DNA from: an uncultured Eubacteriales bacterium
GTDB lineage: Bacteria; Bacillota; Clostridia; Christensenellales; CAG-138
DNA: 48,433 nucleotides
Reading direction: 5' to 3'
Assembly: GCA_902802575.1 (NCBI GenBank)
Contig: CADCMN010000030.1
Location: 1 to 48,433 of the forward strand
A model generated the notes under the pieces. It did not search any database. It worked only from the letters and a program-made list of their open reading frames with translations, and was not told the origin of the DNA. The position numbers and the translations under genes were made by a program. Shown here in pieces: positions 19,825-41,605 of the stretch. Numbering within the stretch: position 1 is the stretch's first letter; each line of letters opens with the position of its first letter.

Positions 19825-19856
19825 TTACAACGCCATTACAAGTTTCCTGCTATACT
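19825..19856 (+). promoter_or_regulatory. TTACAA direct repeat and -10 of the response regulator gene
   Basis: Two exact TTACAA boxes at 19825-19830 and 19836-19841 (11-bp period) end 9 nt before TATACT (19851-19856). The -35 position holds CAACGC, unlike TTGACA, so the promoter probably needs an activator. The arrangement is that of Pho-box-type OmpR-family promoters. It probably marks autoregulation by the downstream regulator. Confidence 0.7.
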
Positions 19857-19887
19857 TGAGGGGAAGAGAAACAGCGAGGGGGAAACT

Positions 19888-20535
19888 ATGGCGAAGATAC
19901 TGATCGTAGAGGACGAAAAGGCCATCAACGATTTGCTGAAACTGAATCTGGAGATGGTGGGCCACCAGTGCGTGTCCGCCTTCTCGGGCAAGGAGGCCAT
20001 CCGCACCGCCGGGGAGCAGGGGTTCGATCTGATGCTCCTCGATGTGATGCTGCCGGACATGGAGGGCTTCGCGGTCATGGAGAAGGTGCGGGACGTGCCC
20101 ACCATCTTCCTCACCGCCCGAGGCGCCACCACGGACAAGATCCGGGGCTTCGGTTTGGGCGCCGACGACTACATCGTGAAGCCCTTCGAGGTGGCGGAGC
20201 TCCTTGTGCGGGTCCAGGCGGTCCTCCGACGGACCCATCGGGAGGAGACGGAATACACCATCGGCGATCTCACCATCCGCTGGGAGGCCCACGAGGTGTT
20301 CCTCCGCGGAAAACGGGTGGAGCTGACGCCCCAGGAGTTCACGCTCCTGCACATCCTCATCGAGAATCGGAACGTGTGCCTGAGCCGCCAGAAGCTCCTT
20401 TCCGAGGCCTGGGGCATCGACTTTCTGGGGGAGAGCCGGACCGTGGACGTGCACATCCAGAAGCTCCGGCGAAAACTGGACCTGGACGACCATATCAAGA
20501 CCATCTACAAGAACGGGTATCGGTTTGAGGAATAG
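19888..20535 (+). CDS. OmpR/PhoB-family response regulator
   Basis: 215 residues. Receiver domain (1-115) with acidic pocket Glu8/Asp9, phospho-acceptor Asp52 (LMLLDVMLPDMEG), Thr77 (IFLTARG) and Lys98 (IVKPF). Winged-helix DNA-binding domain (about 125-215) with LTPQEFTLLHILIEN and the recognition helix around SRTVDVHIQKLRRKL, ending GYRFEE. This domain class binds as a dimer to direct repeats about 11 bp apart, which fits the TTACAA boxes upstream of this gene and two others. GAGGGGGAAACT precedes the ATG. The cognate histidine kinase follows 170 bp downstream. Confidence 0.94.
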   Translation: MAKILIVEDEKAINDLLKLNLEMVGHQCVSAFSGKEAIRTAGEQGFDLMLLDVMLPDMEGFAVMEKVRDVPTIFLTARGATTDKIRGFGLGADDYIVKPFEVAELLVRVQAVLRRTHREETEYTIGDLTIRWEAHEVFLRGKRVELTPQEFTLLHILIENRNVCLSRQKLLSEAWGIDFLGESRTVDVHIQKLRRKLDLDDHIKTIYKNGYRFEE

Positions 20536-20549
20536 GGGCCTGTTTTCAC

Positions 20550-20569
20550 GGGACGGACAAGCCCGTCCC
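20550..20569. repeat. Intergenic palindrome, family member 4
   Basis: GGGACGGAC-AA-GCCCGTCCC followed by CTACGG, one mismatch in the arms, in the gap between response regulator and kinase genes. Confidence 0.65.
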
Positions 20570-20624
20570 CTACGGCACCATGCCGAACCTTTCGTGCCCT
20601 GCCGCAGCGCCCCACTGAAACAGC

Positions 20625-20690
20625 CTGTCCTCCTGAGCGAAGGGAGCGATGCTTTGCATCGCTGCGAAGCCGAAGGACCTCTGAACGCAA
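20625..20690. repeat. Fragment related to the 210-bp intergenic element
   Basis: Contains CCTGTCCTCCTGAGCGAAG and GAAGGACCTCTGAACG (20672-20687); the latter is identical to 31828-31843 in the larger element. It fills the gap between response regulator and kinase genes and leaves the kinase without a strong Shine-Dalgarno. Confidence 0.55.
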
Positions 20691-20705
20691 AAAGGCATCG
20701 AATCC

Positions 20706-21833
20706 ATGAAACTCTGGCAAAAAACCTATCTGTTGTCCACCCTGCTCTGCGCCCTGATCCTCTATGGGTGCATGTTCGGCGTCACCGCTCCCGCCCTGTC
20801 CTCCGCCATCCGGGGCGCGCAGGAATCGTCGCTCCGGGAGGAGCGGGCCATTGCCGGCGCTTTGGAAAAAACCATGCTGGACGCGCCCGAGGGGCGGCAG
20901 ATCCCGGTGATGCAGGCGTTTTTGGAATACTACGCCGGCACCGGCCTGTACTTTGAGGCCCGCCGGGACGAGGCGCTCTACAGCTCCCTGCCCTGCGCCG
21001 TGGACAAGGCGCCCGGGACCATGGGCTTTGTCCGGGAGCAGGGGCGGCTGTACCTCTTCGTCAGCGACCGGCTCCCTGCGGGGGTGGATTTCCTGTACCT
21101 GAAGGACGCGGCGGCCACGGACGGCCTGCTCCGCCGCCAAATCACCGCGGCGGCCCTCACGGGCACGCTGGTGGCCCTGTTCATGGCGGCAGCCCTCTAC
21201 GTCCTCCTCTACCGGGTCAACCTGCCCGTGAGCCGCCTGGCCCACGAGATGCGGACCCCGCTCACCGCCATGAAGGGCTACGCCGAGACGCTGCGGGACG
21301 CCAAACTCACGGAGGAACAGCGGTACATGGCCGCCAGCTACATCGCCGAGGAGAGCACCCGGCTCTCGGACATCTCCGCCCGGCTGTTGACCCTCCACAA
21401 CGCCCGGGAGGAAGCCACCCCCTTCGGCCCCGTGGACGTGGCGGAGCTCTTCGACCACATCCGACAAACCTACCCCATCGTCGCCTGCGAGGTCCGCTGG
21501 CCCACCATCTTCGGGGACAGGGCCATGCTCTCGTCCCTCCTCAACAACCTGGTGGACAACGCCGTGAAGGCATCTCCGGCGGGGGCGAAGGTGGAGCTGC
21601 GGGCCGCGCCCAACGTGCTCACCGTCACCGACCACGGCAGCGGCATGAGCGACGAAGCCCTGCGCTATGTGAACCGCCCCTCCCGTTTCAAGAAGCTCCA
21701 CGCCGGCGGCGGCCTGGGCGTGCCCCTCTGCCACCAGATCGCCCGGGCCCACGGGGCCAGGCTGACCTACGCTCGAGGCGCAGACGGGGGCACCGTGGCC
21801 ACCGTGACCTTTTACAACTCCCTTACAAGTTGA
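20706..21833 (+). CDS. Sensor histidine kinase
   Basis: 375 residues, membrane sensor partner of the upstream response regulator. Transmembrane helices at about 8-29 and 148-169 enclose an extracytoplasmic sensing domain of about 120 residues that I do not recognise. No HAMP domain is evident; the H box follows soon (LAHEMRTPLTAMKGY, His180). N box LLNNLVDNAVKAS, G1 VTDHGSGMS and G2 GGGLGVPLCHQIARAHG are present. The 3' end overlaps the TTACAA boxes that precede the next gene. The ATG has no strong ribosome site. Confidence 0.92.
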   Translation: MKLWQKTYLLSTLLCALILYGCMFGVTAPALSSAIRGAQESSLREERAIAGALEKTMLDAPEGRQIPVMQAFLEYYAGTGLYFEARRDEALYSSLPCAVDKAPGTMGFVREQGRLYLFVSDRLPAGVDFLYLKDAAATDGLLRRQITAAALTGTLVALFMAAALYVLLYRVNLPVSRLAHEMRTPLTAMKGYAETLRDAKLTEEQRYMAASYIAEESTRLSDISARLLTLHNAREEATPFGPVDVAELFDHIRQTYPIVACEVRWPTIFGDRAMLSSLLNNLVDNAVKASPAGAKVELRAAPNVLTVTDHGSGMSDEALRYVNRPSRFKKLHAGGGLGVPLCHQIARAHGARLTYARGADGGTVATVTFYNSLTS

Positions 21834-21865
21834 TGAAGACTTCCTTACAAGTCCGGCTCTATACT
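21812..21865 (+). promoter_or_regulatory. TTACAA repeat array and -10 upstream of the 21900 gene
   Basis: Exact TTACAA at 21812, 21823 and 21845; the 11-bp register also passes 21834, where a degraded TGAAGA stands. The last box ends 9 nt before TATACT (21860-21865), the same spacing as at 19825-19856. The first 19 bases (TTTTACAACTCCCTTACAA, from 21810) are identical to 41540-41558. The array overlaps the end of the kinase gene. Confidence 0.75.
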
Positions 21866-21899
21866 GACGGTGTCAACTTGAGAAAGGAGCGAAACCCAC

Positions 21900-23393
21900 A
21901 TGAGACTCTTTTGGATGAAAAATAAAGTATTGATCGCCACCCTGGCCGCCGTGCTGGTACTGGGGGCCGCCTTCTGGGGCGGGCTCAGGCTCTTTGAAGG
22001 GGATCGGATGCAGGACGCCTTCATCCGCACCTCCGCCGCCGAGGCGGAGGCCACGGCCAACGCCACGGCGGGCCCCGGCGCCGCCGGGCAGACGGAGGCT
22101 TCCCCCGCGCCCACGGTCATGCCCGCGGAGCTGGTGTCCGATGACATCCTGAACACGGAGTGGAAGTATAAAGGCATCTTCCCCCGCATCACCCACATCT
22201 ACTCCTACCAGGCCAAGACCTGGAAGGAGGGGGATGCGGTGGACGACGCCCTGGCCGACGCCGCCCGGAAGAAGGCCAAGGACGTCTACTACCTGCTGTT
22301 CAACGTGGGCGGGGAGAACCACGACTTCACCACCGCCGCCGTCACCCGGTACGTGGACGAAGCGGGCTGCCGGGAGAACGTTCTCCGGCTCACCGGCAAG
22401 GGCAACAGCTTCGCCTGCGTGCTTACGGAGAAGGATCTGAACCTGCTCATCGCGGACAACGCCAGGTTCCCGGCCACCGCGGCCATCCGCGAGAAGGAGG
22501 ACGCCAAGGAGGTCGCCGAGTACTTGGGCGCCACCCTGGGCCAGGGGGTGGAGAACATGGGCGGCAGCCAGGATAGGACCGGCAGGTGGATGGAACGATT
22601 CTTCGGCTTCGAGCTCAGCGACGGCCGCTGGATCACCCTCTCATACACCATGAACACCCTCTGCGGCATCCAGGTCCACCAGGACAAATACAGCATGCAG
22701 GAGGGGGTCTGCTTCCAGGCGGACATCCGCCACAGCCCCGAGGTGGTCCATCTGGTGGCGGAGCAGAACTTCGTCCAGGGCAGCCCCAACGAGCCCGCCG
22801 AGGGCGACATGACCGTGGATAAGGTCGCGCTGCTGTACCGCGCCTTCCTGTCCGCCGCCAACGGCCGGGCCGCCGAGCGCCGGGACGCCGAGGGCAAGAC
22901 CTTGGCGGAGCTGGACTACAGCCTGAAGGATTGGGAGATCACCTACTTCCTGGACAAGTCCGGCTACCGGGAGAACTTCTACCGCATCCACAAGGACGGC
23001 CTCGTGGACATGGACATCGCCGCCAAGTCCGGCTATATCGTCCATGCCACCTGCAACGGGCTCTACAACCCCGACGACGATCTCAAGCTCATCAACATCC
23101 CCTACGATGATATGGGCGGCGTGGAGTACCTCCACTATGTGAAGTACGTGGCGGAGCAGACCTTCGGCAAGGAGGCTCTGCGGACCGTGGACGTGAACGC
23201 AGTCTACGACGGCAACTTCTGCACCATCGACGCCTACATGATGGACGGCCGCTGGTATGAGTTCTGCTTCGAAGGGGGCCAGCTCATGGAGATCCAGCAC
23301 TACGCTGCGGAGCGCTGCGGCATCATGGGCTGGGGCGCCGACAGCCTCTATGTGAACACCATCACCGGCGAAGAGTTCTATCAGGAGTATTGA
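21900..23393 (+). CDS. Membrane-anchored extracytoplasmic protein, unknown; likely target of the two-component system
   Basis: 497 residues. A short basic N-terminus and one hydrophobic segment (about 8-30) look like a signal anchor; then an Ala/Thr-rich linker to about residue 75 and a large exported domain. I recognise no family. Visible features are scattered aromatic/acidic strands and a C-terminal region with YDGNFCTIDAYMMDGRWYEFCFEGGQLMEIQHYAAERC that resembles beta-rich lipoprotein tails. AGGAGCG precedes the ATG. It lies directly after the kinase gene and is preceded by the TTACAA array, so co-regulation is likely. Function unknown. Confidence 0.75.
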   Translation: MRLFWMKNKVLIATLAAVLVLGAAFWGGLRLFEGDRMQDAFIRTSAAEAEATANATAGPGAAGQTEASPAPTVMPAELVSDDILNTEWKYKGIFPRITHIYSYQAKTWKEGDAVDDALADAARKKAKDVYYLLFNVGGENHDFTTAAVTRYVDEAGCRENVLRLTGKGNSFACVLTEKDLNLLIADNARFPATAAIREKEDAKEVAEYLGATLGQGVENMGGSQDRTGRWMERFFGFELSDGRWITLSYTMNTLCGIQVHQDKYSMQEGVCFQADIRHSPEVVHLVAEQNFVQGSPNEPAEGDMTVDKVALLYRAFLSAANGRAAERRDAEGKTLAELDYSLKDWEITYFLDKSGYRENFYRIHKDGLVDMDIAAKSGYIVHATCNGLYNPDDDLKLINIPYDDMGGVEYLHYVKYVAEQTFGKEALRTVDVNAVYDGNFCTIDAYMMDGRWYEFCFEGGQLMEIQHYAAERCGIMGWGADSLYVNTITGEEFYQEY

Positions 23394-23497
23394 TCCATAC
23401 GCGCCAACGCCGCCGCGGTTTCCTCCCCGCAGCGCAGGCCGTCATAAAGGGCGGCAGACTGGTTGGGGCAAGGAAAGACAAAGGGATACTATCGGCA

Positions 23498-23523
23498 GAA
23501 AGGACGCATAGCTGCGTCCTTTC
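23498..23523 (+). terminator. Hairpin after the 21900 gene
   Basis: GAAAGGACGCA (23498-23508), loop TAGC, TGCGTCCTTTC (23513-23523), perfect 11-bp stem about 105 bp past the stop. No strong T-run follows. Confidence 0.55.
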
Positions 23524-23624
23524 CCGATTATATGCCGCAAATCAGCCGTTTTTCCGGCTCTCCGCATAGCTAAGAAAACGGCTTCTGTCATCCTTTCTGA
23601 GGGCCTGCTTCAACACGCAAAAGC

Positions 23625-23644
23625 GGGCGGATCGTGATCCGCCC
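23625..23644. repeat. Intergenic palindrome, family member 5
   Basis: GGGCGGATC-GT-GATCCGCCC followed by CCTACGG. A weaker relative (GATTC-AC-GAATC) lies at about 23709-23720. The 334-bp gap 23394-23727 otherwise holds the hairpin at 23498 and no gene. Confidence 0.7.
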
Positions 23645-23727
23645 CTACGGATGTGGGACCAGGGCGTTCCCGCAGCGCAGCGTTGCACCGATTTGTTCCC
23701 GCAGGGCCGATTCACGAATCGCCGGTC

Positions 23728-24261
23728 TCACACGCTCAGCAGCCGTCCCAGATACAGCGCCCCGGTCTTCAGGCTCTGCAGGGCGCTCTCCCCCAGGGCC
23801 GGGCCGCCCTCGGCGCTCAGGAGGAACACGCCGCCCACGGCGTCGCCCTCCAGGAGGATGGGCACCCCCAACAGGGCCGTGAAGGGCGATTCCTGGCCTT
23901 CGGCCAGCAGGGCGTTGCGCTCCTCGATCACCTGCCGGCCCAGCAGCCGCCGCCGCAGGTTGTCCAGCAGAGGCTTGTCCAACAGCCACCGCCGCTGCCG
24001 CCCCGCCGCCGCCACGCAGGCTTCCTTGTCCGTCACCGCCGCCGTGAGGCCGAAGGCCCCGTTCAGCGCCTGGACGTACTGCTCCGCCACCTCCTTGAGG
24101 CCGCCCACGGAGGAGTATTTTTTGAGCTGGATGCACCCGTCCTCCCCCATGTAGATCTCCATGGGGTCGCTCTCCTGGATCCTCAGCGTCCGCCGTATCT
24201 CCTTGGGGATCACGATCCGCCCCAGCTCGTCTATCCTTCGCACGATCCCGGTTGCCTTCAT
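23728..24261 (-). CDS. spoVT: Stage V sporulation protein T
   Basis: Forespore transcription regulator that tunes late sigma-G-dependent genes and spore germination. 177-178 residues, the usual SpoVT size. An AbrB-type swapped-hairpin DNA-binding domain (1-50: MKATGIVRRIDELGRIVIPKEIRRTLRI) is followed by a GAF-like domain (about 55-178). ATG 24261 has GGAGG 6 bases upstream; the family starts exactly here. A sigma-G-like promoter is visible upstream (24297-24325). Together with spoIIE, spoIIGA and sigE it shows that the organism is a spore former. Confidence 0.94.
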   Translation of the reverse strand: MKATGIVRRIDELGRIVIPKEIRRTLRIQESDPMEIYMGEDGCIQLKKYSSVGGLKEVAEQYVQALNGAFGLTAAVTDKEACVAAAGRQRRWLLDKPLLDNLRRRLLGRQVIEERNALLAEGQESPFTALLGVPILLEGDAVGGVFLLSAEGGPALGESALQSLKTGALYLGRLLSV

Positions 24262-24296
24262 AAAAAACCTCCTGCAGTACCATCTTTTGCTTTGGA

Positions 24297-24325
24297 TAGT
24301 ATTTGCAGGAGGAGAATTGTTATAC
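24297..24325 (-). promoter_or_regulatory. Sigma-G-like promoter of spoVT
   Basis: On the minus strand GTATA (24325-24321), 17-bp spacer, AATACTA (24303-24297), compared with the known sigma-G pattern GHATR-N17/18-CATWMTA; one mismatch in the -10. It sits about 36 bp before the start codon. spoVT is a sigma-G gene in Bacillus subtilis. Confidence 0.6.
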
Positions 24326-24341
24326 AAAAAGCAGGACAGCT

Positions 24342-24569
24342 TTATTCGGTGGGTCCGTTCAAAGGCGTCTCCTCAGGAATGTACTCCATGATTTTGTCAA
24401 TGTCACATTGAAGAATGCGGCAGAACATCTCTATGGTGTGGGTGCTGACGCTTTCATTTCGCTTCAGCCGCGTGATCTGAGCCGGACTGATATGATATGT
24501 CTTGATAAGAGCGTACTGCGTAACGCCCCTTTCCTTCATCGTATCCCAAAGCTTTCCATATGAAATCAT
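24342..24569 (-). CDS. Small XRE-family HTH regulator
   Basis: 75 residues, nearly all a Cro/CI-type helix-turn-helix: MKERGVTQYALIKTYHISPAQITRLKRNESVSTHTIEMFCRILQCDIDKIMEYIPEE. It resembles the HTH_26/YozG-like single-domain repressors. It starts 111 bp from the divergent BIG2 surface-protein gene, and two inverted repeats lie between them, so it probably controls that gene and itself. Less GC-rich than the flanking spoVT. Confidence 0.85.
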   Translation of the reverse strand: MISYGKLWDTMKERGVTQYALIKTYHISPAQITRLKRNESVSTHTIEMFCRILQCDIDKIMEYIPEETPLNGPTE

Positions 24570-24571
24570 CT

Positions 24572-24598
24572 ATGCAAGCACTCGCTTTCCACTTGCAT
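24572..24598. promoter_or_regulatory. Inverted repeat overlapping the BIG2-gene -35 (candidate XRE operator)
   Basis: ATGCAAG (24572-24578) / CTTGCAT (24592-24598), perfect 7-bp arms with centres 20 bp apart. The right arm contains the -35 TTGCAT. Adjacent to the XRE gene start. Confidence 0.55.
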
Positions 24599-24621
24599 GA
24601 TAACCAAATACGGTTTATAAT
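24593..24621 (+). promoter_or_regulatory. Sigma-A-type promoter of the BIG2 surface protein gene
   Basis: TTGCAT (24593-24598), 17-bp spacer, TATAAT (24616-24621). A second inverted repeat, ATTAAC (24625-24630) / GTTAAT (24639-24644), follows the -10 and would cover the transcript start. Confidence 0.75.
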
Positions 24622-24679
24622 AATATTAACCAATATCAGTTAATGTACGGATTTACCAATAAGCAAAGGAGGGGATCCC

Positions 24680-26551
24680 ATGAAAAAAAGGATATATGGT
24701 CGACTGATCCTGTTTCTCGTTTTTTCGGCGCTCTTGGCTCTCTCGTTGTTTGAAGCTAAGGCGGATGGCGAACTGCCGGAAAGCACAACGGATCCAACCA
24801 GCACAGAAGGACCCATCGACTGGTCTCAATACACCTATAATGAGTTGCTTCTGATCCGGGACAGCCTGAATGATCACATCCGTGAGATGGAAAGGCAATA
24901 TGCCATTGAGAACGGCAACCGGATCATCACTCTGAGCGATGCGGAGGTCACCCTGTACACCAAAAAAACGCACACTCTTGCGGCTGAGATCAAACGGGTC
25001 GTAGAGGACGCACCGGACAAAACCACGCTTGTTTGGAAATCATCGGATGAATCCGTGGCAAAGGTGTCCAACACCGGCGTCGTCACGGGCATAGGATATG
25101 GCACGGCAACCATCACCTGCAGCGCATCCGACGATGAGTATATCTTTGCAGAATCTGCTATTCATGTCGTCCTCCCAGTATCCAAAATAACTTTGGACAC
25201 CTCCAATGTTTCACTGCTGTTGTCTGATCAGAATCCCTCCGATGGGACAGCTTCCCTGTCCTGCACCGTGGCCCCTGATAACGCCCATGTTAAGGACGTC
25301 ACCTGGACTTCCTCCAATACTGAAGTTGTTACTGTGGACGAAAGGGGAGTCATTCATGCCATATCGCCGGGAACGGCTATCATCACCGTTCGTTCCAAGG
25401 ATCCTGAGTCAAGCACGGTAAATGCGACGTGCAAGGTCACGGTGCTTCAGGTGGTCAACAAGATCACCCTCAATAAAACGTCTCTGTCCTTGAATATCAA
25501 CGCAAGCGAGACTCTGACAGCGACAATTCTGCCCGCAAACGCGACCAACAAGAAAGTGACCTGGGAATCCTCCAATCCTAAGGTCGCCACCGTTTCCATC
25601 AACGGCCAGGTGAAGGCTGTCGGTCCGGGCACCGCCACCATTTCCTGTATTGCTGCGGATGGGAGCAAGGTGCGCGCAACCTGCACCGTCAAATGTATCC
25701 AAATGATCACCGGCATCAAGATCGACGTCAAGGAGAAGACCATCACCCTGAACAGGGATAAATCGACCACTCTGAAAACCATCATTCAGCCGGCCAATGC
25801 ATCCGACAAGAGCCTGACATGGTCCAGCTCCAATCCTAGGATCGTCTCTGTCACCAGCGCGGGGGTCATAAAGGCTGTATCCGGTGGGGCCGCCACCATT
25901 ACCTGCACCGCCAATGACGGGAGCGGCAAGTCCGTTTCCATCGAAGTGTTTGTTCCCAGCATATCGGTCAGCAGAACTGAATACAGTGTCAGTTCAAAAT
26001 CCGGTCTCGATATTACCGTGCAGTATTATGGATTGTACAGGAACTTTAGTTATTCGGTCAGCCCGTCCAACTTGTTTGACGTAAAAACGAAACAGAGCGG
26101 CGACACCATCACTCTGTCGATCGTTCCCAACAAAGCGGGGACGGCCACCATCACCCTGAAGGACAGCGCTGATCGAAGAAATGAAACAAAGATCACTGTC
26201 AATATCCTGCATAGCGCCTGCTATGATACTTCGTCGTACCCAAAGGGCGATTACGAATCGGTTTTGAGAAACCCCTATTCCTATAAGGGCGGCAATATGT
26301 CTATTTACGGCAGAGTCCTTCAGATAGGCACCTCATGGGGTTCGACCTATATGCGCGTTGCGACCCGTGGCCGATATGATAATGTTTTCTATGTGAAATG
26401 CTCCAGCAGTATTGCGGCAGGCATCATCGAAGGCGACTATATCACCATATACGGGACCTGCACCGGCACGAAGACTTATACCACCGTGTTAGGCGCATCT
26501 GTCACGATTCCCTCCATAGATGCAGAGAAAATAGTTACCGGGAAAAAATAG
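24680..26551 (+). CDS. Secreted/surface protein with bacterial Ig-like (BIG2) repeats
   Basis: 623 residues. Signal peptide 1-29 (KKRIYGRLILFLVFSALLALSLFEAKAD). A region with a coiled stretch (YNELLLIRDSLNDHIREMERQYAIENGN) precedes about four BIG2 domains (about 85-420) with the repeated signature WxSSNxxVxxVxxxGxVxAxxxGxAxIT. The C-terminal 200 residues include a domain that looks OB-fold-like (KGGNMSIYGRVLQIG...YVKCSSSIAAGIIEGDYITIYGTCTG). No sortase motif or transmembrane anchor is seen at the end. AAAGGAGGGG precedes the ATG. Less GC-rich than neighbours, which may point to acquisition. Probably adhesive; substrate unknown. Confidence 0.85.
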   Translation: MKKRIYGRLILFLVFSALLALSLFEAKADGELPESTTDPTSTEGPIDWSQYTYNELLLIRDSLNDHIREMERQYAIENGNRIITLSDAEVTLYTKKTHTLAAEIKRVVEDAPDKTTLVWKSSDESVAKVSNTGVVTGIGYGTATITCSASDDEYIFAESAIHVVLPVSKITLDTSNVSLLLSDQNPSDGTASLSCTVAPDNAHVKDVTWTSSNTEVVTVDERGVIHAISPGTAIITVRSKDPESSTVNATCKVTVLQVVNKITLNKTSLSLNINASETLTATILPANATNKKVTWESSNPKVATVSINGQVKAVGPGTATISCIAADGSKVRATCTVKCIQMITGIKIDVKEKTITLNRDKSTTLKTIIQPANASDKSLTWSSSNPRIVSVTSAGVIKAVSGGAATITCTANDGSGKSVSIEVFVPSISVSRTEYSVSSKSGLDITVQYYGLYRNFSYSVSPSNLFDVKTKQSGDTITLSIVPNKAGTATITLKDSADRRNETKITVNILHSACYDTSSYPKGDYESVLRNPYSYKGGNMSIYGRVLQIGTSWGSTYMRVATRGRYDNVFYVKCSSSIAAGIIEGDYITIYGTCTGTKTYTTVLGASVTIPSIDAEKIVTGKK

Positions 26552-26594
26552 CCAACGCTTAAACAGTGGACCTGTTTCTGAAGAAATCGACAAA

Positions 26595-26630
26595 GAAGAG
26601 CGACCGAATCGTTTGAAACGGACGCTCTTC
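26595..26630 (+). terminator. Terminator of the BIG2 gene
   Basis: GAAGAGCG (26595-26602) / CGCTCTTC (26623-26630) with inner CCG/CGG pairing, followed by TTATAT, 44 bp past the stop. Confidence 0.65.
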
Positions 26631-27644: not shown

Positions 27645-27647
27645 AAC

Positions 27648-34263: not shown

Positions 34264-35634
34264 ATGGAACGGATCAACGCGTGGACCACGTACAAGAAGC
34301 GGGAAGAGAAGAAGGTCATGGACCTGGGCAAGGCCTATCGGGCCTTTTTGGATAAGGGCAAGACCGAGCGGGAGTGCGTGAAGGAGGCCATCCGCCGGGC
34401 GGAGCAGGCCGGGTACGCGGACCTGGAGAAGGTCGAAAAGCTCCAGGCCGGGGACCGGGTGTATGTGAACACCATGGGCAAGGCCATCCAGCTGTACATC
34501 ATCGGCACCGAGCCCCTGGAGAAGGGCCTCAACATCGTGGGCGCCCACATCGACAGCCCCCGTATGGACCTGAAGCAGAACCCTCTCTATGAGGACACGG
34601 ACGTGGCGTATCTGGACACCCACTACTACGGCGGCATCAAGAAGTATCAGTGGGTCACCCTGCCCCTGGCCCTTCACGGCGTGGTGGCCAAGAAGGACGG
34701 CACGGTGGCGGACGTGGTCATCGGCGAGGACGAGGACGACCCCGTGGTGGGCATCTCCGACCTGTTGATCCACCTGTCCGCCCAGCAGTTGGACAAGAAG
34801 GCCAGCGTGGTCATTGAGGGCGAAGCTTTGGACGTGATCGTGGGCGGCAAGCCCCTCAAGGGTGCGGAGAAGGAGCCCGTGAAGGCGGCCATTTTGGCGA
34901 TACTGAAGGAGAAGTACGGCATGGAGGAGGAGGACTTCCTCTCCGCCGAGATCGAGGTGGTCCCTGCGGGCAAGAGCCGGGACTTCGGGTTGGACCGCAG
35001 CATGATCCTGGGCTACGGCCATGACGATCGGGTCTGCGCCTATGCACAGATCGAGGCCATGCTGAAGATCGCCGAAACGCCCCGCTGCACCTGCTGCTGC
35101 ATCCTGGCCGACAAGGAGGAGATCGGCAGCGTGGGCGCCACGGGCATGCGGGCCCGCTACTTCGAGAATGCCGTGGCGGAGATCATGGACAAGCTGGGCG
35201 AGTATTCCGAGCTGAAGCTCCGCCGGGCCCTGTCGAGCAGCCGCATGCTCTCCTGCGACGTGAGCGCAGGCTTCGACCCCTCCTACGCCGCCAGCTTCGA
35301 GAAGAAGAATTCCGCGTATCTCGGCCGGGGCGTCTGCTTCAACAAGTACACCGGCTCCCGGGGCAAGGGCGGCAGCAACGACGCCAACGCCGAGTACATG
35401 GGCCGGCTCCGGGCCATCATGGACGACAACAAGGTCTGCTTCCAGACGGCGGAGCTGGGCCGGGTGGACCAGGGCGGCGGCGGCACCATCGCCTACATCT
35501 GCGCCCTCTACGGCATGAACGTCATCGACAGCGGCGTGGCGGTCCTGTCCATGCACGCCCCCTGGGAGATCATCTCCAAGGCGGACCTCTATGAGGCGGT
35601 CAAGGCCTACCATGCCTTCCTGATGAACGCCTGA
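34264..35634 (+). CDS. M18-family aminopeptidase
   Basis: 456 residues, cytosolic metallo-aminopeptidase that removes N-terminal acidic or neutral residues. Zinc-site patches: VGAHIDSPRMDL, YGHDDRVCAYAQIEAM, ADKEEIGSVGATGMRARYF and a C-terminal VLSMHAPWEIISKADLYEAVKAYHAF. ATG 34264 has AGGAGG 6 bases upstream; GTG at 34258 is in frame but within the ribosome site. A UUCG-loop terminator follows. Confidence 0.93.
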   Translation: MERINAWTTYKKREEKKVMDLGKAYRAFLDKGKTERECVKEAIRRAEQAGYADLEKVEKLQAGDRVYVNTMGKAIQLYIIGTEPLEKGLNIVGAHIDSPRMDLKQNPLYEDTDVAYLDTHYYGGIKKYQWVTLPLALHGVVAKKDGTVADVVIGEDEDDPVVGISDLLIHLSAQQLDKKASVVIEGEALDVIVGGKPLKGAEKEPVKAAILAILKEKYGMEEEDFLSAEIEVVPAGKSRDFGLDRSMILGYGHDDRVCAYAQIEAMLKIAETPRCTCCCILADKEEIGSVGATGMRARYFENAVAEIMDKLGEYSELKLRRALSSSRMLSCDVSAGFDPSYAASFEKKNSAYLGRGVCFNKYTGSRGKGGSNDANAEYMGRLRAIMDDNKVCFQTAELGRVDQGGGGTIAYICALYGMNVIDSGVAVLSMHAPWEIISKADLYEAVKAYHAFLMNA

Positions 35635-35652
35635 TCCCCCTATTATCGCAGC

Positions 35653-35687
35653 AAAGCGGGCGTCTTCGGACGCCTGCTTTTGTTTTT
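35653..35687 (+). terminator. Terminator of the M18 gene
   Basis: AAAGCGGGCGTC (35653-35664), TTCG loop, GACGCCTGCTTT (35669-35680) with one G-T pair, then TGTTTTT. Confidence 0.85.
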
Positions 35688-35700
35688 CCTGCAAACAGGG

Positions 35701-35730
35701 GGAGCGCGCCGGCCTTTACCGACGCGCTCC
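35701..35730 (-). terminator. Possible terminator of sigE
   Basis: GGAGCGCG (35701-35708) / CGCGCTCC (35723-35730), 8-bp arms, 29 bp past the sigE stop on the minus strand. No T-run, so weakly supported. Confidence 0.4.
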
Positions 35731-35758
35731 AAGCGCCTCCTTCCCGATTTGATACGCT

Positions 35759-36472
35759 TTATCCTTGCATGCGCAGGATCTCCCGCTTCAGTTGGTCCAT
35801 GATCCGCTTCTCCAGGCGGGAGATGTAGCTCTGGCTGATGCCCATGGCGTCGGCCACCTGCTTCTGGGTCCGGGGCGGCTGCTCATGAAGGCCGAAGCGC
35901 AGCTCCACGATCCGCCGTTCCCGGGGGCTGAGCCGGGCGAGGGCCGCCCAGAGGAGGCGTTTGTCCACCTCGTCCTCCAGATCCCGGCCGACCTCCTCCC
36001 CGTCCGTGCCCAGGATGTCGGAGAGCAGCAGCTCGTTGCCGTCCCAGTCCACGTTCAGAGGTTCGTCCAGCGACACCTCCAGCTTCAGCTTGCAGCTGCG
36101 GCGCAGGTACATGAGGATCTCGTTTTCGATGCACCGGGAGGCGTAGGTGGCCAGCTTGATCTTCTTCTCCGGATCGAAGGTGTTCACCGCCTTGATGAGG
36201 CCGATGGTGCCGATGGAGATCAGATCCTCCGCCTGGACGCCGGTGTTTTCAAACTTTCGCGCGATGAACACCACCAGCCGCAGGTTGTGCTCGATCAGCT
36301 GGTTCCGGGCGCCTTCGCTCCCCTTGGCCGCCAGGATCACACAGCCCCGCTCCTCCTCCGGCGTCAGCGGCGGCGGCAGGCTCTCCCCCGAGCGGACCAG
36401 ATAGCAGCGATAGCGCCGGGTGAACAGCCGCGCGCAGAGCCGATAGAACAGCGCTTTGAGCTTTTGGAACAT
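35759..36472 (-). CDS. sigE: Sporulation sigma factor SigE (pro-sigma-E)
   Basis: 237 residues, the mother-cell sigma factor made as an inactive precursor. An amphipathic pro-sequence of about 27 residues ([21 protein letters not shown]) precedes region 2 ([43 protein letters not shown]) and region 4 ([29 protein letters not shown]). ATG 36472 has GGAGG upstream. It is the last gene of the leftward spoIIE-spoIIGA-sigE cluster; SpoIIGA removes the pro-sequence. Confidence 0.95.
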
Positions 36473-37220
36473 GTTCCTTCCTCCCTTCATGGAGCGCCGC
36501 CCCGGGGAGCAGCGCCTGAAATTCGATGAGCGGCAGCGGGGATTGGCCCACATACACGGGCACCCTGGCCCGGTCCTCTCCCAGCCGCACCGTGGCCCGC
36601 ACCACCTCCACCACCCCCTGCCCCGCCAATGACAGAGGCCGGCCCGGGGGCAGCTCCACCCCCTCCACCAGGACCACCGGCAGGCCCGAAAGGGGTTCCG
36701 TCAGCAGATTCCCCGAGTCCACCAAGGCGGTGAGGGAAAAGGTCCGGCCCCCCACGTCCAGAACGATGGTCCGCCGGCAGCTCTCCTCATACCCCCGATG
36801 GACCAGAAACCGGACGGCGCGAACGAGGGGCGGCAGCAGGCAGAAGCCGTAGACGGCCGCCCGCAGAGGCACGGCGCCCAGGAGCACCCCGCCGGTCCAG
36901 GGGCCGGTCCGGCCCAGGGTGAGGAGCAGCAGGCCGCCCCCCAGCAGCAGGGACGCGGCGAACAACGACAGCAGGGATCTAAGATACTCCCGGCGGCCGA
37001 CGAGCAGCGCCGTGACCAACAAACAGCCCACCCGCCCCGGGGGGCTCAGGAGCCGAGGCCATCGGCTCAGCGCCGCCAGATCCCAGCACGTTCCCAGCAG
37101 GGACGTGAGCGCGGCCCGACCGGGGCGCAGCGCCATGCCGCCCAGGGCTCCGGCCAGCTTCAGCAGGAGCCAGTTCACCGCGAAGTTGTCCAGCAAAAAC
37201 CACTCTAAGGAGACCCTCAT
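36249..37220 (-). CDS. spoIIGA: SpoIIGA, sigma-E processing peptidase (stop codon lies inside sigE)
   Basis: Membrane aspartic protease that cleaves pro-sigma-E after a signal from the forespore. Five hydrophobic segments fill residues 1-140; the catalytic Asp168 lies in [19 protein letters not shown]. The family part ends near residue 245 ([18 protein letters not shown]). No stop follows in this frame until 36249, so the open frame runs 224 bp into sigE and would give 323 residues with an odd Ala/Gly-rich tail. Adding one base in the CCCCGGGG tract near 36500 would bring a TGA into frame just before the sigE ribosome site. ATG 37220 overlaps the spoIIE stop by 4 bp. Confidence 0.87.
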
Positions 37221-39457
37221 GCCACTTCCACGACCATGACGGTCATGTCGTCCCGCTGTCCCCGATCCCTGGCCGCCGCCATGAGCTCCTCTGCCATTCT
37301 CTCCAGCGGCACGGCGGCCCGGCACTTCAGCTCCGCTTCCAGATCCTTGCCCAGCAGGTCATAGACCCCGTCGGTGCAGAACACCAGCCGATCCTGCTGC
37401 CGCAGGCGGATGCGGCGGATATAGGGCCGGGCCTCGTCCACGATGCCGCAGGGCAGGGCCTCCCCGGAAAGGGTCCTCACGTTCCCCTCCCGCACCAGGC
37501 AGGTGGGCGGCGCGCCAAACTTCACCATCTCCGCCTCCCCGGTGACCAGGTCGATGCTGGCTGCGTCCAATGTGGCATAGATCTCCTTTTCCCCCCGGGC
37601 GATGAGCAGCCGGTTCACATTCTCATAGATCAGCTCCCGTTCCATCCCCAGCCGGAACTGGTCGAACAACAGGTCGATCGCCGCCCGGCTCTCCCGGTTG
37701 GCCGCCTCGCCGCTGCCCATGCCGTCGGACACGGCGTAGACCACCTTCCCGCTGGGCATCCGAAGCTCTCCTGTTTCGTCCCCGCAGACGCTCTCCTCCC
37801 CCTCCGGCAAGGAGACCCGCGCCATACGGGCCGTAAGACCCTGGAGGGCCTCCATCTCAAAGACGGTCCCCGCCGCCTCCCGCCGACTCTCGATGATACG
37901 CATGGTCCGGCGGAGCTTCTTCTCCACGGCGGCGATCAGCGCCCCGGCGTTCTCGCTGCCCCGGGCGCTCAGGCGGATGGACAGGCACAGCCGGCCGCCG
38001 GAATAGAAGGCGTCCACGGACAGGGGCGCGAACCCCCGGCGGATGAGATAGGGGATCAGCGCCCCCTCCACCGCTTCATCCCCCCAGCGGTCCTCCCGCA
38101 GCCGCATGGCCAGGACGCCGAGCAGGGCGGACACGCCCTGAAGCTGCCGGTTCATGTAGGCGTACTGCTCCGCCGTCCGCCGCTGATGGGCCTCATGGAC
38201 GAAGGCCTGGTTATAGGATTGATAGGCGGAGGTCATGATCTCCCGGAAGAACCGGCAATGGCTGTCCATGGGCGACAGGGGCCGCACGGGCTCCCCCCGA
38301 TCATAGGCGGACAGCAGATGGAGCACCGCCCGGTCAAAGTCTCCCTCTTCCCGCTGGCACAGGATGCGGCCCTCGCAGCCCACGCACACCCGCCGAGCCG
38401 CCCCCAGGGGCCACTCCACCACGAACCGGTCGTCCTCCCCCTCCTCCCGGAACAGGCCGGACAGGGCCCCGCACAGATGGGCCGCTTCCTCCACCTCCGC
38501 CGCCAGGCGGCGCTTCCATCGGTCCATGGCCTGGGCGCCGTTTCGCTCTCCATACAGACGGCTGTTCAGCAGCAGCTCCCACCGGTTCATCCATTCCCGC
38601 GGAAAAACCAAGGTCACGAGGCAGGCGATGAGCGCGCTGCCCACCCGCCAGGTTTCCCCCTCTCCGCCCAGGAAGACCGCCAGGATCGTGGCCGTCAGCA
38701 GAAAAGTCCCGGCGGTGTAGGCTCGCCCATAGGGGGCGACGAGGGCGGCCATCAGGGTGCACAGGGCCGTGACGCCCAGCAGCAGCGCCCCGTCCTCCAG
38801 CCCGAAGGCCAGCAGCGCCGCCGTGAGGATCGCCGTCCCCAGCCCTTGGGGCCCCTTGGTCAACGCCAGGATCAGCACATACAGATCCAGCAGGATCACC
38901 GGCAGCGAGATGCCCCCGACGGCAAAATCGCCCATCCCCAGGAGCAGCAGCCCCAACGACGCGGACAGGATCAGCTGCTCCCCCTCCTGCAGCACCGTCA
39001 GCCGCTCCGCCCGTCGAACGAGGCCCCAGCACCGATGCAGCAGCACCACGGCCGCCGCCGACAGGGCCAGCGACAGCAGGGCGTACGCCGAGGAGCGCCA
39101 GGTCAGCACCATCTCAAAGGGCAGCACCGCCAGCTCGCATAGCAGAAACACCAGCATCCTGGCGCTGGCGGACACACGCCCCACCAGGGCGTTCATCAGC
39201 CGCATGAGCAGCACGAAGGCCGCCGCGGCGATCATAACACCCCAGAGGGGCTCGCCGCTCAGAAAGGCCCCCGCCACCACGCCGGCGCCGGCAAAGAGAG
39301 GGTCGATGCCGGACAGCTCCGCGGCCGCCATGCAGGCCAGGCCGAAGGGCGCGCAGCTCTCCCCCACCCGTACCCGGCAAAGGAGCAGGCTCGCGGCGAA
39401 GGCCGCCAGCTCCAGCAGATACTTCCTGGTATTGATTCCCTGTTTCTTTCGGTTCAT
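37217..39457 (-). CDS. spoIIE: Stage II sporulation protein E (membrane PP2C phosphatase)
   Basis: 746 residues; dephosphorylates SpoIIAA at the sporulation septum and so activates sigma-F. About ten transmembrane helices occupy residues 15-300. A middle region (VCVGCEGRILCQREEGDFDRAV) is conserved in clostridial SpoIIE. The C-terminal PPM domain (about 545-746) has VSDGMGSGEAA, a metal-site TDGVYDLLG, and RDDMTVMVVEV. Its stop overlaps the spoIIGA start (ATGA). In Bacillus subtilis spoIIE is not next to spoIIGA-sigE, so this clustering is notable. Confidence 0.94.
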   Translation of the reverse strand: MNRKKQGINTRKYLLELAAFAASLLLCRVRVGESCAPFGLACMAAAELSGIDPLFAGAGVVAGAFLSGEPLWGVMIAAAAFVLLMRLMNALVGRVSASARMLVFLLCELAVLPFEMVLTWRSSAYALLSLALSAAAVVLLHRCWGLVRRAERLTVLQEGEQLILSASLGLLLLGMGDFAVGGISLPVILLDLYVLILALTKGPQGLGTAILTAALLAFGLEDGALLLGVTALCTLMAALVAPYGRAYTAGTFLLTATILAVFLGGEGETWRVGSALIACLVTLVFPREWMNRWELLLNSRLYGERNGAQAMDRWKRRLAAEVEEAAHLCGALSGLFREEGEDDRFVVEWPLGAARRVCVGCEGRILCQREEGDFDRAVLHLLSAYDRGEPVRPLSPMDSHCRFFREIMTSAYQSYNQAFVHEAHQRRTAEQYAYMNRQLQGVSALLGVLAMRLREDRWGDEAVEGALIPYLIRRGFAPLSVDAFYSGGRLCLSIRLSARGSENAGALIAAVEKKLRRTMRIIESRREAAGTVFEMEALQGLTARMARVSLPEGEESVCGDETGELRMPSGKVVYAVSDGMGSGEAANRESRAAIDLLFDQFRLGMERELIYENVNRLLIARGEKEIYATLDAASIDLVTGEAEMVKFGAPPTCLVREGNVRTLSGEALPCGIVDEARPYIRRIRLRQQDRLVFCTDGVYDLLGKDLEAELKCRAAVPLERMAEELMAAARDRGQRDDMTVMVVEVA

Positions 39458-39473
39458 GGCCCCATTGTAGACG

Positions 39474-39591
39474 ATGGCAGGGGTCCGTTTTCGGCGAATC
39501 CGGTTCCTGTATCCGCATTTCTTCCCGACAGGATCGGCGGCGCCTCGGCCTCTTTTAGCCTTTCCTCTCCGATCCTGTGGGCCCCTGCCAT
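39474..39591. repeat. Nested inverted repeats between spoIIE and tmk
   Basis: Outer arms ATGGCAGGGG (39474-39483) / CCCCTGCCAT (39582-39591) and inner arms ACAGGATCGG (39528-39537) / CCGATCCTGT (39569-39578). All four arms are perfect. The pair could form a cruciform or an RNA structure in the divergent intergenic region. Function unknown. Confidence 0.6.
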
Positions 39592-39603
39592 GAAAACCCT
39601 GTC

Positions 39604-39632
39604 TTGCCCCGGAGGGTGGAATATGCTATACT
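39604..39632 (+). promoter_or_regulatory. Promoter of the thymidylate kinase-like gene
   Basis: TTGCCC (39604-39609), 17-bp spacer, TATACT (39627-39632) with the extended -10 TG at 39624-39625. Confidence 0.65.
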
Positions 39633-39666
39633 GATGGCAAATATCATCCGACAGGAAAGAACGACT

Positions 39667-40335
39667 ATGAACCAAACGAAGATCATCGCCTTTGAGGGTA
39701 TCGACGGCACGGGCAAGAGCGTACAGATGGAGGCCCTGCGCCAGAGGCTGGAGGAACGGGGCCTTTCCGTGGGCGTGCTGTCCTTCCCGGACTACGACAG
39801 CTTTTTCGGCGGCTGCGTGGGCCGATACCTCACCAAGCGGGATGGGGTCTCCGCCAGCGATGTGGATCAGCGGAGCATGGCCCTCTGGTTCGCCATGGAC
39901 CGGTGGGCCGCCTTTCGGGACTTCGACTATCGCCCGTACGACGTGCTGCTCATCAACCGCTACGTGCTGAGCAACGCCGTGTACCAGAGCATCCGGGATC
40001 GGGACGTGGACCGGCCCGACATTTTGGAATTTGTGCTGGAGCTGGAGCACGGGCAGCTCCGGCTCCCCCGGCCGGATCTGTACCTCATTTTGGATGTGGA
40101 TCTGAGCGCCGCCCAGAACAACGTCACCAAGAAGGGATACCGGGAGTATGTGGGCGACGAGAAGGATGAGTATGAGAAACAGGATGCCATCCAGCTCAGA
40201 GCCCGGGCCAAGTACCTCGCCTTCGGGGAACGGCTCGACGGCGTGCAGGTGATCCCCTGCATGGAGGACGGCGCCCTGCTGCCCATCGAAACCATCGCTC
40301 AGCGCGTGTACGCCGCCGCAGCCAGGATCCTGTAA
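39667..40335 (+). CDS. tmk: Thymidylate kinase-like P-loop kinase
   Basis: Phosphorylates dTMP to dTDP. 222 residues with P-loop FEGIDGTGKS (9-18), the DRx-type motif NRYVLSNAVYQS and a C-terminal helix QRVYAAAARIL. The lid region (KKGYREYVGDEKDEYEKQDA) differs from the usual short bacterial lid, so the substrate could be another deoxynucleoside monophosphate. CAGGAAAG precedes the ATG. 17 bp before the polysaccharide deacetylase gene, probably cotranscribed. Confidence 0.85.
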   Translation: MNQTKIIAFEGIDGTGKSVQMEALRQRLEERGLSVGVLSFPDYDSFFGGCVGRYLTKRDGVSASDVDQRSMALWFAMDRWAAFRDFDYRPYDVLLINRYVLSNAVYQSIRDRDVDRPDILEFVLELEHGQLRLPRPDLYLILDVDLSAAQNNVTKKGYREYVGDEKDEYEKQDAIQLRARAKYLAFGERLDGVQVIPCMEDGALLPIETIAQRVYAAAARIL

Positions 40336-40352
40336 CCGGCGGAGGAGGGCAT

Positions 40353-41480
40353 ATGATCCGACGTTCCTTTCTGATCCTGCTGGGCGCGCTGCTGGTCCTG
40401 AGCCTGTTTGCCGCCTGCGGGCCCGACGCCCAAATCGAGGCTTTGTCGCCCGACGAAAGGGCCCCGGCCCGGCCCGCCGCGGCGGCCACGGCCATCCCCA
40501 TGGTCATCGACCCGCCCGTCTGCACGGCTTCGCCCGTTCCCGTTCTCTCGCCCACGCCCACGGCTGCGCCCACCCCCATCCCTGTCAGCGATCCCGTCAT
40601 CCTGCTGAAGGGGGGCGAATCCCTGACGGTGAACGCCGCCTTCACCTTTGAGGACCCGGGGTTCACGGCGCGGGATTACCTGGGCGAGGATCTGACGAGC
40701 CGGGTGGTCGTCACGGGGACGGTGACCTCCTACCTGGTGGGGGAATACGCCCTCACCTACGCCGTGGCGGACGATTACGGAAACTCGACCCGGATAGAGC
40801 GCACCGTCACCGTTCAGCCCGTGCCGCTGCCCGAGTTGGTCCCCCCGCCGGAAAAGACCATCTACCTCACCTTTGACGACGGCCCCGGCGATCACACGGC
40901 CCTGCTGCTGGATATCCTGAAAAAATACGACGTCAAGGCCACCTTCTTCGTGGTGGGCAGCCGCCGAAGAAAGGACCTTATCAAGCGGGCCTTTGACGAG
41001 GGCCACAGCATCGGCGTCCACACCTTCACCCATGACTACGACAAGATGTATACCAGCCTGGACGCCTACTTCCAGGACTTCCTGGCCACCCAGGAGGTCA
41101 TCCGGGACCAGACCGGCCAATACACCACCCTCTTCCGCTTCCCCGGCGGCAGCGGCAACACCGCCAGCATCAGCCGATGCCGCGGCCTCATGACCCAGCT
41201 CACCAAGATCATGGAGGACATGGGGTACCGCTATTTCGACTGGAACTGCAGCGCCGGCGACTCCAACTTCCATTCGGGCCAGAGCGCCTCCCATTACAGC
41301 AGCGTGCTGTGCGGCAAGGTCAAGAAGGACGGCAGTCCCACCTTGATCCTGCAGCACGATCTGAACCGAAACAGCATCCAGGCCCTGGACTACTTCATCC
41401 CCTGGGCCCTGAAAAAGGGCTACGTCTTCCTGCCGCTGGACATGACCAGCCCCGTGGTCCACTCCCTGGTCAAAAACTGA
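40353..41480 (+). CDS. Lipoprotein polysaccharide deacetylase with Ig-like domain
   Basis: 375 residues. Lipoprotein signal with LFAACG (Cys22), a Pro/Ala/Thr-rich linker, a DUF5011-like Ig domain (about 80-155: FTFEDPGFTARDYLGEDLTSRVVVTG...YALTYAVADDYGN) and a NodB deacetylase domain (about 168-375). Metal and catalytic motifs: TFDDGPG, HTFTHDY and RFPGGSGN. It would deacetylate peptidoglycan or another surface glycan outside the membrane. GGAGGAGGG precedes the ATG. Ends at a UUCG terminator. Confidence 0.9.
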   Translation: MIRRSFLILLGALLVLSLFAACGPDAQIEALSPDERAPARPAAAATAIPMVIDPPVCTASPVPVLSPTPTAAPTPIPVSDPVILLKGGESLTVNAAFTFEDPGFTARDYLGEDLTSRVVVTGTVTSYLVGEYALTYAVADDYGNSTRIERTVTVQPVPLPELVPPPEKTIYLTFDDGPGDHTALLLDILKKYDVKATFFVVGSRRRKDLIKRAFDEGHSIGVHTFTHDYDKMYTSLDAYFQDFLATQEVIRDQTGQYTTLFRFPGGSGNTASISRCRGLMTQLTKIMEDMGYRYFDWNCSAGDSNFHSGQSASHYSSVLCGKVKKDGSPTLILQHDLNRNSIQALDYFIPWALKKGYVFLPLDMTSPVVHSLVKN

Positions 41481-41495
41481 TCCCGCCTGCCCGGC

Positions 41496-41522
41496 CCCCT
41501 CTCTTCGGAGAGGGGCTTTTTT
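41496..41522 (+). terminator. Terminator of the tmk-deacetylase unit
   Basis: CCCCTCTC (41496-41503), TTCG loop, GAGAGGGG (41508-41515), then C and six T. Confidence 0.92.
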
Positions 41523-41541
41523 CTCTGCGCCGAAGGAGGTT

Positions 41542-41605
41542 TTACAACTCCCTTACAACTCCCTTACAACTATGTGACGTTTTGGACGAATTTGGGCGGT
41601 AGAAT
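41542..41605 (+). promoter_or_regulatory. Triple TTACAA repeat upstream of the 41636 lipoprotein gene
   Basis: Exact TTACAA at 41542, 41553 and 41564, strict 11-bp period. TTTTACAACTCCCTTACAA (41540-41558) is identical to 21810-21828. A TAGAAT -10 lies at 41600-41605, about two further 11-bp turns downstream; poorly matching copies (TGACGT 41575, ACGAAT 41586) stand in that register. Directly follows a terminator, so it is a free-standing promoter region. Confidence 0.72.

Follow-up and report, generated by a model that had tools for sequence, protein, structure and literature searches.

The window analysed here is a stretch of 48,433 nucleotides (nt) from an uncultured Eubacteriales bacterium (contig CADCMN010000030.1; the genome holding it is termed G000). 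At three loci in this window the hexamer TTACAA is repeated with a period of 11 base pairs (bp). The first series lies in the promoter of a gene encoding an OmpR-family response regulator. The second is found at the 3′ end of the histidine kinase gene of the same operon, with its boxes 1 and 2 inside the last kinase codons, and precedes the third gene, orf497. The third series is located upstream of a gene encoding a lipoprotein of the family DUF6034. The original prediction had described exact TTACAA hexamers with this period at all three loci, a TATACT hexamer spaced by 9 nt from the last box at the first and second, and a 19-base core common to two of them. All three statements are correct, and the shared 19-mer is TTTTACAACTCCCTTACAA (21810–21828 and 41540–41558). 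The coordinates of the features are collected in Table 1. The gene products have the composition of an OmpR/PhoB-type system, a receiver joined to a winged-helix output domain and an adjacent kinase with both catalytic-core domains. The boxes form direct repeats, and the array stands at a fixed distance 5′ of the −10 hexamer, replacing a −35 element.

Table 1. Features of the three TTACAA loci and of the adjoining genes in the window
Feature	Position	Strand	Basis or remark
In-register box CCGCAT	19814..19819	+	11 bp 5′ of the first TTACAA; kept in most same-genus relatives
TTACAA, two boxes, response-regulator promoter	19825..19841 (starts 19825/19836)	+	Read from sequence
−10 hexamer TATACT, regulator promoter	19851..19856	+	Read from sequence
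OmpR-family response regulator, 215 amino acids (aa), Response_reg and Trans_reg_C	19888..20535	+	Pfam
Histidine kinase, 375 aa, HisKA and HATPase_c, no other Pfam matches	20706..21833	+	Pfam; orthologs in relatives
Four-box element TTACAA, TTACAA, TGAAGA, TTACAA, 11-bp steps	21812..21850 (starts 21812/21823/21834/21845)	+	
−10 hexamer TATACT, orf497 promoter	21860..21865	+	Read from sequence
orf497, third operon gene, one N-terminal membrane anchor	21900..23393	+	Anchor read from sequence; no Pfam match
TTACAA, three boxes, DUF6034 promoter	41542..41569 (starts 41542/41553/41564)	+	Read from sequence
TGACGT (41575) and ACGAAT (41586), in register	41575..41591	+	Define the DUF6034-type promoter class
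−10 hexamer TAGAAT, 8 nt 3′ of ACGAAT	41600..41605	+	Read from sequence
DUF6034 lipoprotein, 473 aa, lipobox ...STIAC-QPTP	41636..43057	+	Pfam PF19499

The two-box pattern, searched with up to two mismatches, occurs four times in the window, while 0.42 occurrences are expected; none of 100 dinucleotide shuffles reached four. The genome-wide search for TTACAA pairs with 11-bp period, which had been proposed as a check, returned nine exact pairs in the genome of the window and none in the reversed control. The expectation that the boxes recur upstream of genes for exported proteins was borne out, as five of the nine pairs precede genes for extracytoplasmic or membrane proteins: orf497, the DUF6034 gene of the window (twice) and the DUF6034 units at C61 and C6. 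One pair precedes the regulator gene of the window, and the three others precede a glycosyltransferase gene, a recX gene and an unclear downstream gene, respectively. The spacing was surveyed in six genomes of the same genus by collecting TTACAA pairs 0–25 nt apart. Tallied by hand from 50 rows, the spacer is 5 nt in 36 pairs and 16 nt, corresponding to two turns, in five; the reversed control contained 13 pairs over all spacers. The surveyed pairs are not independent of each other, since many are orthologous. In the following, g1 denotes the genus of the window (12 genomes) and g2 a second genus (23 genomes). A search of 101 genomes gave 69 exact pairs and no controls in the 12 g1 genomes, and 37 pairs and 15 controls in 45 family genomes of other genera, a set that leaves out four g2 genomes and 40 genomes of other families. 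The 23 genomes of g2 contain 93 exact pairs, against three controls.

The operon itself is conserved in relatives. From 78 loci found in the kinase search, 27 (L149–L175) in which the kinase matched over most of its length were combined with the window into a set of 28 operons; the loci L176–L226, where the match is confined to the kinase core, were not used. The 27 loci and the compared genome set overlap by at least 12 contigs. The gene order regulator, kinase, orf497 relative is present at all 28 loci, even though 15 of the kinases are just 38–44% identical to the kinase of the window. The 27 loci originate from Clostridia, Clostridiales or Bacillota assemblies, one of them labelled Christensenella sp., and for nine of these assemblies a sheep, goat, cattle or buffalo gut site is named. 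At E ≤1e-40 the kinase is present in 12 of 12 g1 genomes and in 18 of 23 g2 genomes. The kinase match in the genome G129 covers the C-terminal half only, and this genome was not counted as a carrier of the window-type system. None of the plasmids searched for orf497 carried this gene.

The boxes are kept together with the operon. In 24 of the 28 regulator promoters two boxes (at least 10 of 12 letters) stand exactly 9 nt from a −10 hexamer sharing five or six letters with TATAAT; in two of the 24, L166 and L172, the boxes were found in a longer upstream stretch. The orthologs have thus retained the boxes at the regulator's own gene. At the junction between the kinase gene and orf497, all 28 operons have the element TTACAA-N5-TNACAA-N5-TGANGA-N5-TTACAA, matching it at no fewer than 19 of 22 letters; in the last two of them it was found after a longer interval had been searched. 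It is always located 9 nt 5′ of a hexamer that matches TATAAT at four or five letters. Random 500-nt stretches of the window, 1,958 in number, scored no higher than 17 of 22. The OmpR/PhoB-type geometry predicted for the first two loci is therefore conserved in both. One detail of the prediction has to be corrected. The box at 21834 had been described as degraded, yet its sequence TGAAGA fits the TGANGA of all 28 operons. Because TGA-N-GA is kept across the operons, the third box is a conserved variant and not a product of decay. The overlap of boxes 1 and 2 with the last kinase codons is shared by the close relatives of the window. In seven of the 15 more distant loci (L161–L175) the element lies wholly 3′ of the kinase stop codon, so it is kept as DNA and not as protein.

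The four-box element is not restricted to this operon. A looser pattern allowing one mismatch gave 61 matches in 39 of 103 family genomes and in 9 of 26 genera, compared with two in the reversed controls. A match is present in 29 of the 30 genomes with the window-type kinase and in one of the five g2 genomes lacking it; the pattern was derived from the window operon, and its presence at that operon is partly given by construction. Another 16 loci that carry a gene for a related kinase or for DUF6034, 12 of them from other genera and four from g1, were also scored. Eight of the 12, belonging to six genera, score 17–22 of 22 (reversed-letter controls, 12–15), and the four g1 loci score 18–21. 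An example is L348, with TTACAA-TTACAA-TGCGGA-TTACAA-N9-TAAAAT. In the related loci that were inspected, the elements are located either 5′ of the regulator gene or 3′ of the kinase gene. A DUF6034 gene lies within 1 kb 3′ on the same strand for at least 21 of 74 kinase matches, in 18 genomes, where both kinases and DUF6034 genes are the family members among the matches listed. In the window operon, orf497 occupies the position held by DUF6034 in the related operons.

The third locus represents a related but separate promoter class, in which the TTACAA boxes are continued by two further in-register boxes. All 12 g1 genomes contain the composite pattern KRCRNTTYGKMCRMAT-N8-TA, with 66 sites in total, as do 20 of the 23 g2 genomes, with 80 sites; a further seven sites lie in 68 other genomes, and the reversed controls of the three groups gave one, two and nine matches, respectively. 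The 8-nt distance to the −10 hexamer is fixed by the search pattern itself. The downstream genes were checked for 36 of the 153 sites, with the start of several of the encoded proteins being a guess of the script. A DUF6034 gene follows within 4 kb on the same strand at 23 of these sites, and a response regulator gene at five. Seven g1 sites have the form TGTACACAT and seem to belong to another kind of promoter; the one of them that was checked, L283, is without a DUF6034 gene. The genome of the window has nine composite sites, which precede eight DUF6034 transcription units and the paralogous regulator C6:32898. One of the eight units is headed by a 565-aa membrane protein without Pfam match, encoded at L105:3247-4941 (G000:C61) under a composite promoter, and L097 likewise has a similar gene ahead of DUF6034. 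At G000:C6:33593 (L227) a paralogous regulator has a DUF6034-type promoter in which TTACAA stands directly 5′ of the ACGAAT-type box, and promoters like this one are also found in other g1 genomes. Furthermore, the operon loci L166, L169, L170 and L175 have a DUF6034-type promoter upstream of the promoter of the regulator itself, which suggests a wiring between the two promoter classes.

To our knowledge, no function has been assigned to DUF6034, and a search of a limited literature collection returned no paper on the family. Besides the product of 41636–43057, nine of nine further candidates from the same genome, picked by lipobox or C-terminal motif, match PF19499 above the curated cut-off. 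The genome of the window contains 22 stretches matching DUF6034, while 14 control genomes contain none. At least four DUF6034 matches contain one in-frame stop codon, TAG in three and TAA in one (G058:C9:19123, G012:C5:106331, G008:C5:35045 and G033:C12:8986); these are perhaps decaying copies of an expanding family. The sequence of DUF6034 gave no match at E ≤1 among solved structures, and neither its sequence nor that of orf497 gave anything useful there. Structures were compared through predicted models. The DUF6034 model (mean predicted local distance difference test score, pLDDT, 79.3; predicted template-modelling score, pTM, 0.74) has its best Foldseek match in 5coz from Eubacterium rectale (E 1.4e-8), and it also matches seven chains of YycI from Bacillus subtilis (2o3o) with E 2e-3 to 3e-2 and probabilities of 0.84–0.98. 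For the orf497 model (pLDDT 81.7, pTM 0.67), YpeB ranks third by E-value (E 2e-3, probability 0.95). A membrane anchor or lipobox and the adjacency to a kinase gene are seen for the orf497 and DUF6034 proteins. The operon order and the YycI- or YpeB-like model matches suggest, with moderate confidence, that both act as accessory proteins of the kinases. The original prediction had called the two surface proteins unrelated-looking. Their sequence profiles indeed do not align, but the two are less unrelated than this implies, as both are extracytoplasmic with a single anchor and their models have YycI-like or YpeB-like matches.

A tree of 52 response regulators was calculated, for which two rows were dropped and long rows trimmed. 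G006:C5:121925 and the three weakest of the 51 search rows (G012:C5:217792, G000:C7:18852 and G006:C2:35442) were left out. The regulator of the window falls into a clade (100/98) within a larger clade of 24 members (100/96). Among 18 regulators inside the larger clade, six have a coding-strand box pair with up to two mismatches upstream of their own gene; among 19 outside it, none has. The regulator starts correspond to the longest reading frame, and a misplaced start may hide a box: L081 and L228_2650 were scored as boxless and yet have boxes. A second system of the same genome (C6:19915) carries TTACAAAGAAATTACAT 5′ of its regulator gene, a box pair with 11 of 12 letters, and its counterpart in G008 has an exact pair. 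The recognition helices read RTVDVHIQKLRRKL in the regulator of the window and RSVDVKISSLRRKL and RTLDSHVQRLRRKL in paralogs. They differ, and a shared but graded specificity among the paralogous regulators is therefore plausible.

Two of the nine exact pairs of the genome are of another kind. The pair at G000:C1:29656 (L109, spacer ACAGT) lies 5′ of a glycosyltransferase 2/GtrA-domain gene, and the pair at G000:C3:26657 (L110, spacer CAAAG) lies 5′ of the recX gene (both assigned by Pfam); the pairs are followed by an in-register TGACAT or TGACGT. The spacers of both recur across the genus, and that of L109 recurs in other genera as well. The assumption of one regulator for all TTACAA pairs was rejected, as these two pairs stand farther from the −10 hexamer and the ACAGT pair extends beyond the genus; another regulator is likely to use them.

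We propose that these boxes act as tandem half-sites of a response regulator of OmpR/PhoB type. Dimers of the regulator would bind head to tail along one side of the helix, once per 11-bp turn, and the bound array would bring RNA polymerase to a promoter without a −35 hexamer, whose −10 hexamer follows the last box at a distance of 9 nt. The regulator encoded at 19888 would in this way activate its own operon, comprising the regulator and kinase genes, and would activate orf497 through the four-box version at the 3′ end of the kinase gene. We infer the pairing of regulator and boxes, and the direction of the regulation, from sequence. Autoregulation is the simplest reading, because the boxes stay with the operon and the four-box element tracks the kinase. 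The module is likely to work in the manner of WalRK-YycHI, with a regulator, a kinase and an anchored extracytoplasmic accessory protein of YycI/YpeB type. It appears to have been multiplied in the bacterial family, where paralogous regulator-kinase-DUF6034 operons keep the four boxes. The scattered DUF6034 lipoprotein genes carry the composite promoter, which adds TGACRT and ACGAAT and is probably read by one or several paralogous regulators. Altogether, a multiplied and autoregulated WalRK-YycI-like signalling module is the probable explanation of these data, with binding and activation as its deduced part.

A number of observations weigh against this proposal. At the operon, L163 and L174 have exact boxes at the regulator promoter and no matching −10 hexamer at 9 nt, and the boxes of L169 and L170 are degraded. 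Four of the 12 loci from other genera are without four boxes (score 13–15). An own-gene box pair is absent for 12 of the 18 in-clade regulators, in some cases through a misplaced start, and L141, which lies outside the clade, has a two-mismatch pair on the opposite strand. The structural matches are also limited. The template-modelling (TM) scores against YycI are low (0.23 by query, 0.38–0.40 by target) and the best match, 5coz, is uncharacterised. YpeB is the sole relevant match of orf497, with a TM-score of 0.36 by target, the other listed matches having probabilities of at most 0.41, and a profile-profile comparison between orf497 and DUF6034 gave no alignment. Eight of the 36 checked composite sites, L283 among them, precede neither a DUF6034 nor a regulator gene. 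The composite class is present in four of the five g2 genomes without the window-type kinase; in one of these four, G058, the downstream DUF6034 gene was confirmed. The composite counts in g2 are 63 in the 18 genomes with the kinase and 17 in the five without it (Mann–Whitney U test, p 0.85). The exact-pair counts of these two groups differ weakly (p 0.07), and the difference falls to p 0.40 after two pairs are subtracted for the operon's own promoters. A presence/absence link of the kinase with TTACAA pairs or DUF6034-type sites in the 23 g2 genomes was therefore dismissed as nonsignificant. Because the promoter class does not depend on the window-type kinase, the third locus cannot be assigned to the regulator encoded at 19888. 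The original prediction is thus supported as to a conserved OmpR/PhoB-type element at the regulator promoter and at orf497, and not as to the DUF6034 gene being a target of this regulator.

The third locus might also belong to a separate regulon, in which another transcription factor uses the ACGAAT/TGACRT element (palindrome-like TTYGNNCRAA) and TTACAA is an added layer. We regard this as less likely than not. The DUF6034 promoters of L277 and L280 have TGACGT-ACGAAT with TTACAA absent from the preceding 48 nt, and the listed variants of the palindrome-like motif partly retain its symmetry; however, the exact 11-bp register with TTACAA and the 8 nt to the −10 hexamer fit one tandem array. It is rather unlikely that the boxes are read mainly by a same-clade paralog, either the one beside the DUF6034 cluster of G000:C6 or C6:32898, with the regulator encoded at 19888 being its target or partner. 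Such a paralog is suggested by the 11/12 box pair 5′ of the regulator of the second system and by an exact pair 117 nt after its kinase gene, ahead of the DUF6034 cluster. The composite pattern 5′ of the C6:32898 regulator and of its counterparts in G006, G011, G058 and G037 points in the same direction, as do a like composite site up to about 2.2 kb 5′ of a kinase match in 11 of 12 g1 genomes and the DUF6034-type promoters retained in G058, which has no kinase of the 20706 type. Against it, the boxes at 19825 and 21812 stay with the operon across two genera (24/28 and 28/28), and the four-box element is found in nearly all genomes with the kinase (29/30) and in one of five kinase-less g2 genomes. 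The boxes could further be sites of the general regulator WalR/YycF. The site at 19825 reads TGTAAT-N5-TGTAAA on the other strand and fits the published WalR consensus TGTWAH-N5-TGTWAH (PMC4168254), and the conserved pairs at the glycosyltransferase and recX genes, which stand farther from the −10 hexamer and of which the ACAGT-spacer pair recurs in other genera, would agree with a general regulator. We consider this improbable: two regulator lines outside the clade occur in all six genomes, yet the pairs of other genera are near background (37 vs 15 controls in 45 genomes), the regulators with a coding-strand pair at their own promoter all lie inside the clade (0/19 outside), and a four-box series with a TGANGA third box is not in the WalR consensus. 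Chance, or an artefact of AT-rich intergenic DNA, has next to no probability: lone TTACAA hexamers are present elsewhere in the window, but the shuffles, the reversed controls (0 vs 9 genome pairs, 2 vs 61 four-box matches) and the conservation of the box positions in 28 operons rule it out.

Several other features of the window were recorded. At 19650–19684, 3′ of an epimerase gene, a terminator-like hairpin (ccgctttttctc ... gagaaaaagcgg) has a lone TTACAA, outside the array, in its loop. The stretch 24680–26551 encodes a surface-type protein with four Big_2 Ig-like stretches, and 40353–41480, just 5′ of the third locus, encodes a polysaccharide deacetylase with a surface Ig-like domain (both assigned by Pfam).

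A signalling module of the proposed kind would make a regulon and its operator code in uncultured gut Clostridia accessible to testing, and it would tie the large family DUF6034 to two-component signalling through operon order, promoter and fold. The paralogous regulators with their closely related half-sites offer a natural set for the study of how specificity diverges in the OmpR family. As a speculation to which we give rather little weight, the DUF6034 proteins might be hugely expanded WalI/YycI-like lipoprotein regulators of kinases, with paralogous regulators turning on each set from combinatorial four-box promoters, where TTACAA- and ACGAAT-type half-sites at 11-bp steps determine the regulators that act. 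If true, this would amount to a family-wide network in which a regulator selects the extracellular partners with which its own kinase works.

Three known systems can be compared with the boxes and the operon. In pho promoters, the box array takes the place of the −35 hexamer. The pho box consists of 11-nt direct repeat units to which an OmpR/PhoB-family regulator binds head to tail (PMC4415409). Such repeats, and the array in place of a −35 hexamer, are what the elements described here share with the pho box of PhoB in Escherichia coli and of PhoP in Bacillus and Streptomyces. The differences concern the word, which is TTACAA here and CTGTCAT there, the four boxes with a distinct conserved third, and the targets, which are the kinase operon and lipoproteins and not phosphate genes. 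With the WalR/VicR site, whose consensus is quoted above from PMC4168254, the elements share the order of hexamer, 5-nt spacer and hexamer. They differ from it by the four-box arrays in one orientation with a fixed 9 nt to the −10 hexamer. In addition, the regulator of the window belongs to none of the three regulator lines shared by the six genomes compared, in a tree that includes no named WalR. The genes for YycH and YycI follow walR-walK, and both proteins are anchored in the membrane and have large extracellular domains. They are reported to modulate WalK activity, with opposite signs in B. subtilis and Staphylococcus aureus, and one study found little effect (PMC4801191, PMC7355866, PMC7299342). 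The window operon and its relatives resemble WalRK-YycHI (WalHI) in the order of regulator, kinase and anchored extracytoplasmic protein or proteins, and the DUF6034 model matches the YycI structure 2o3o. Unlike YycH and YycI, the examined DUF6034 proteins have a lipobox, occur in many copies and possess their own box-bearing promoters. The boxes thus seem to constitute a conserved operator system of the known OmpR/PhoB kind in a new arrangement, with a strong case for the first two loci. A literature search, in the limited collection mentioned above, for TTACAA direct repeats of response regulators listed a single pneumococcal paper. The new elements are the word TTACAA, a four-box layout whose third box is distinct, the multiplication of regulator-kinase-DUF6034 modules and the composite promoters of DUF6034 genes.

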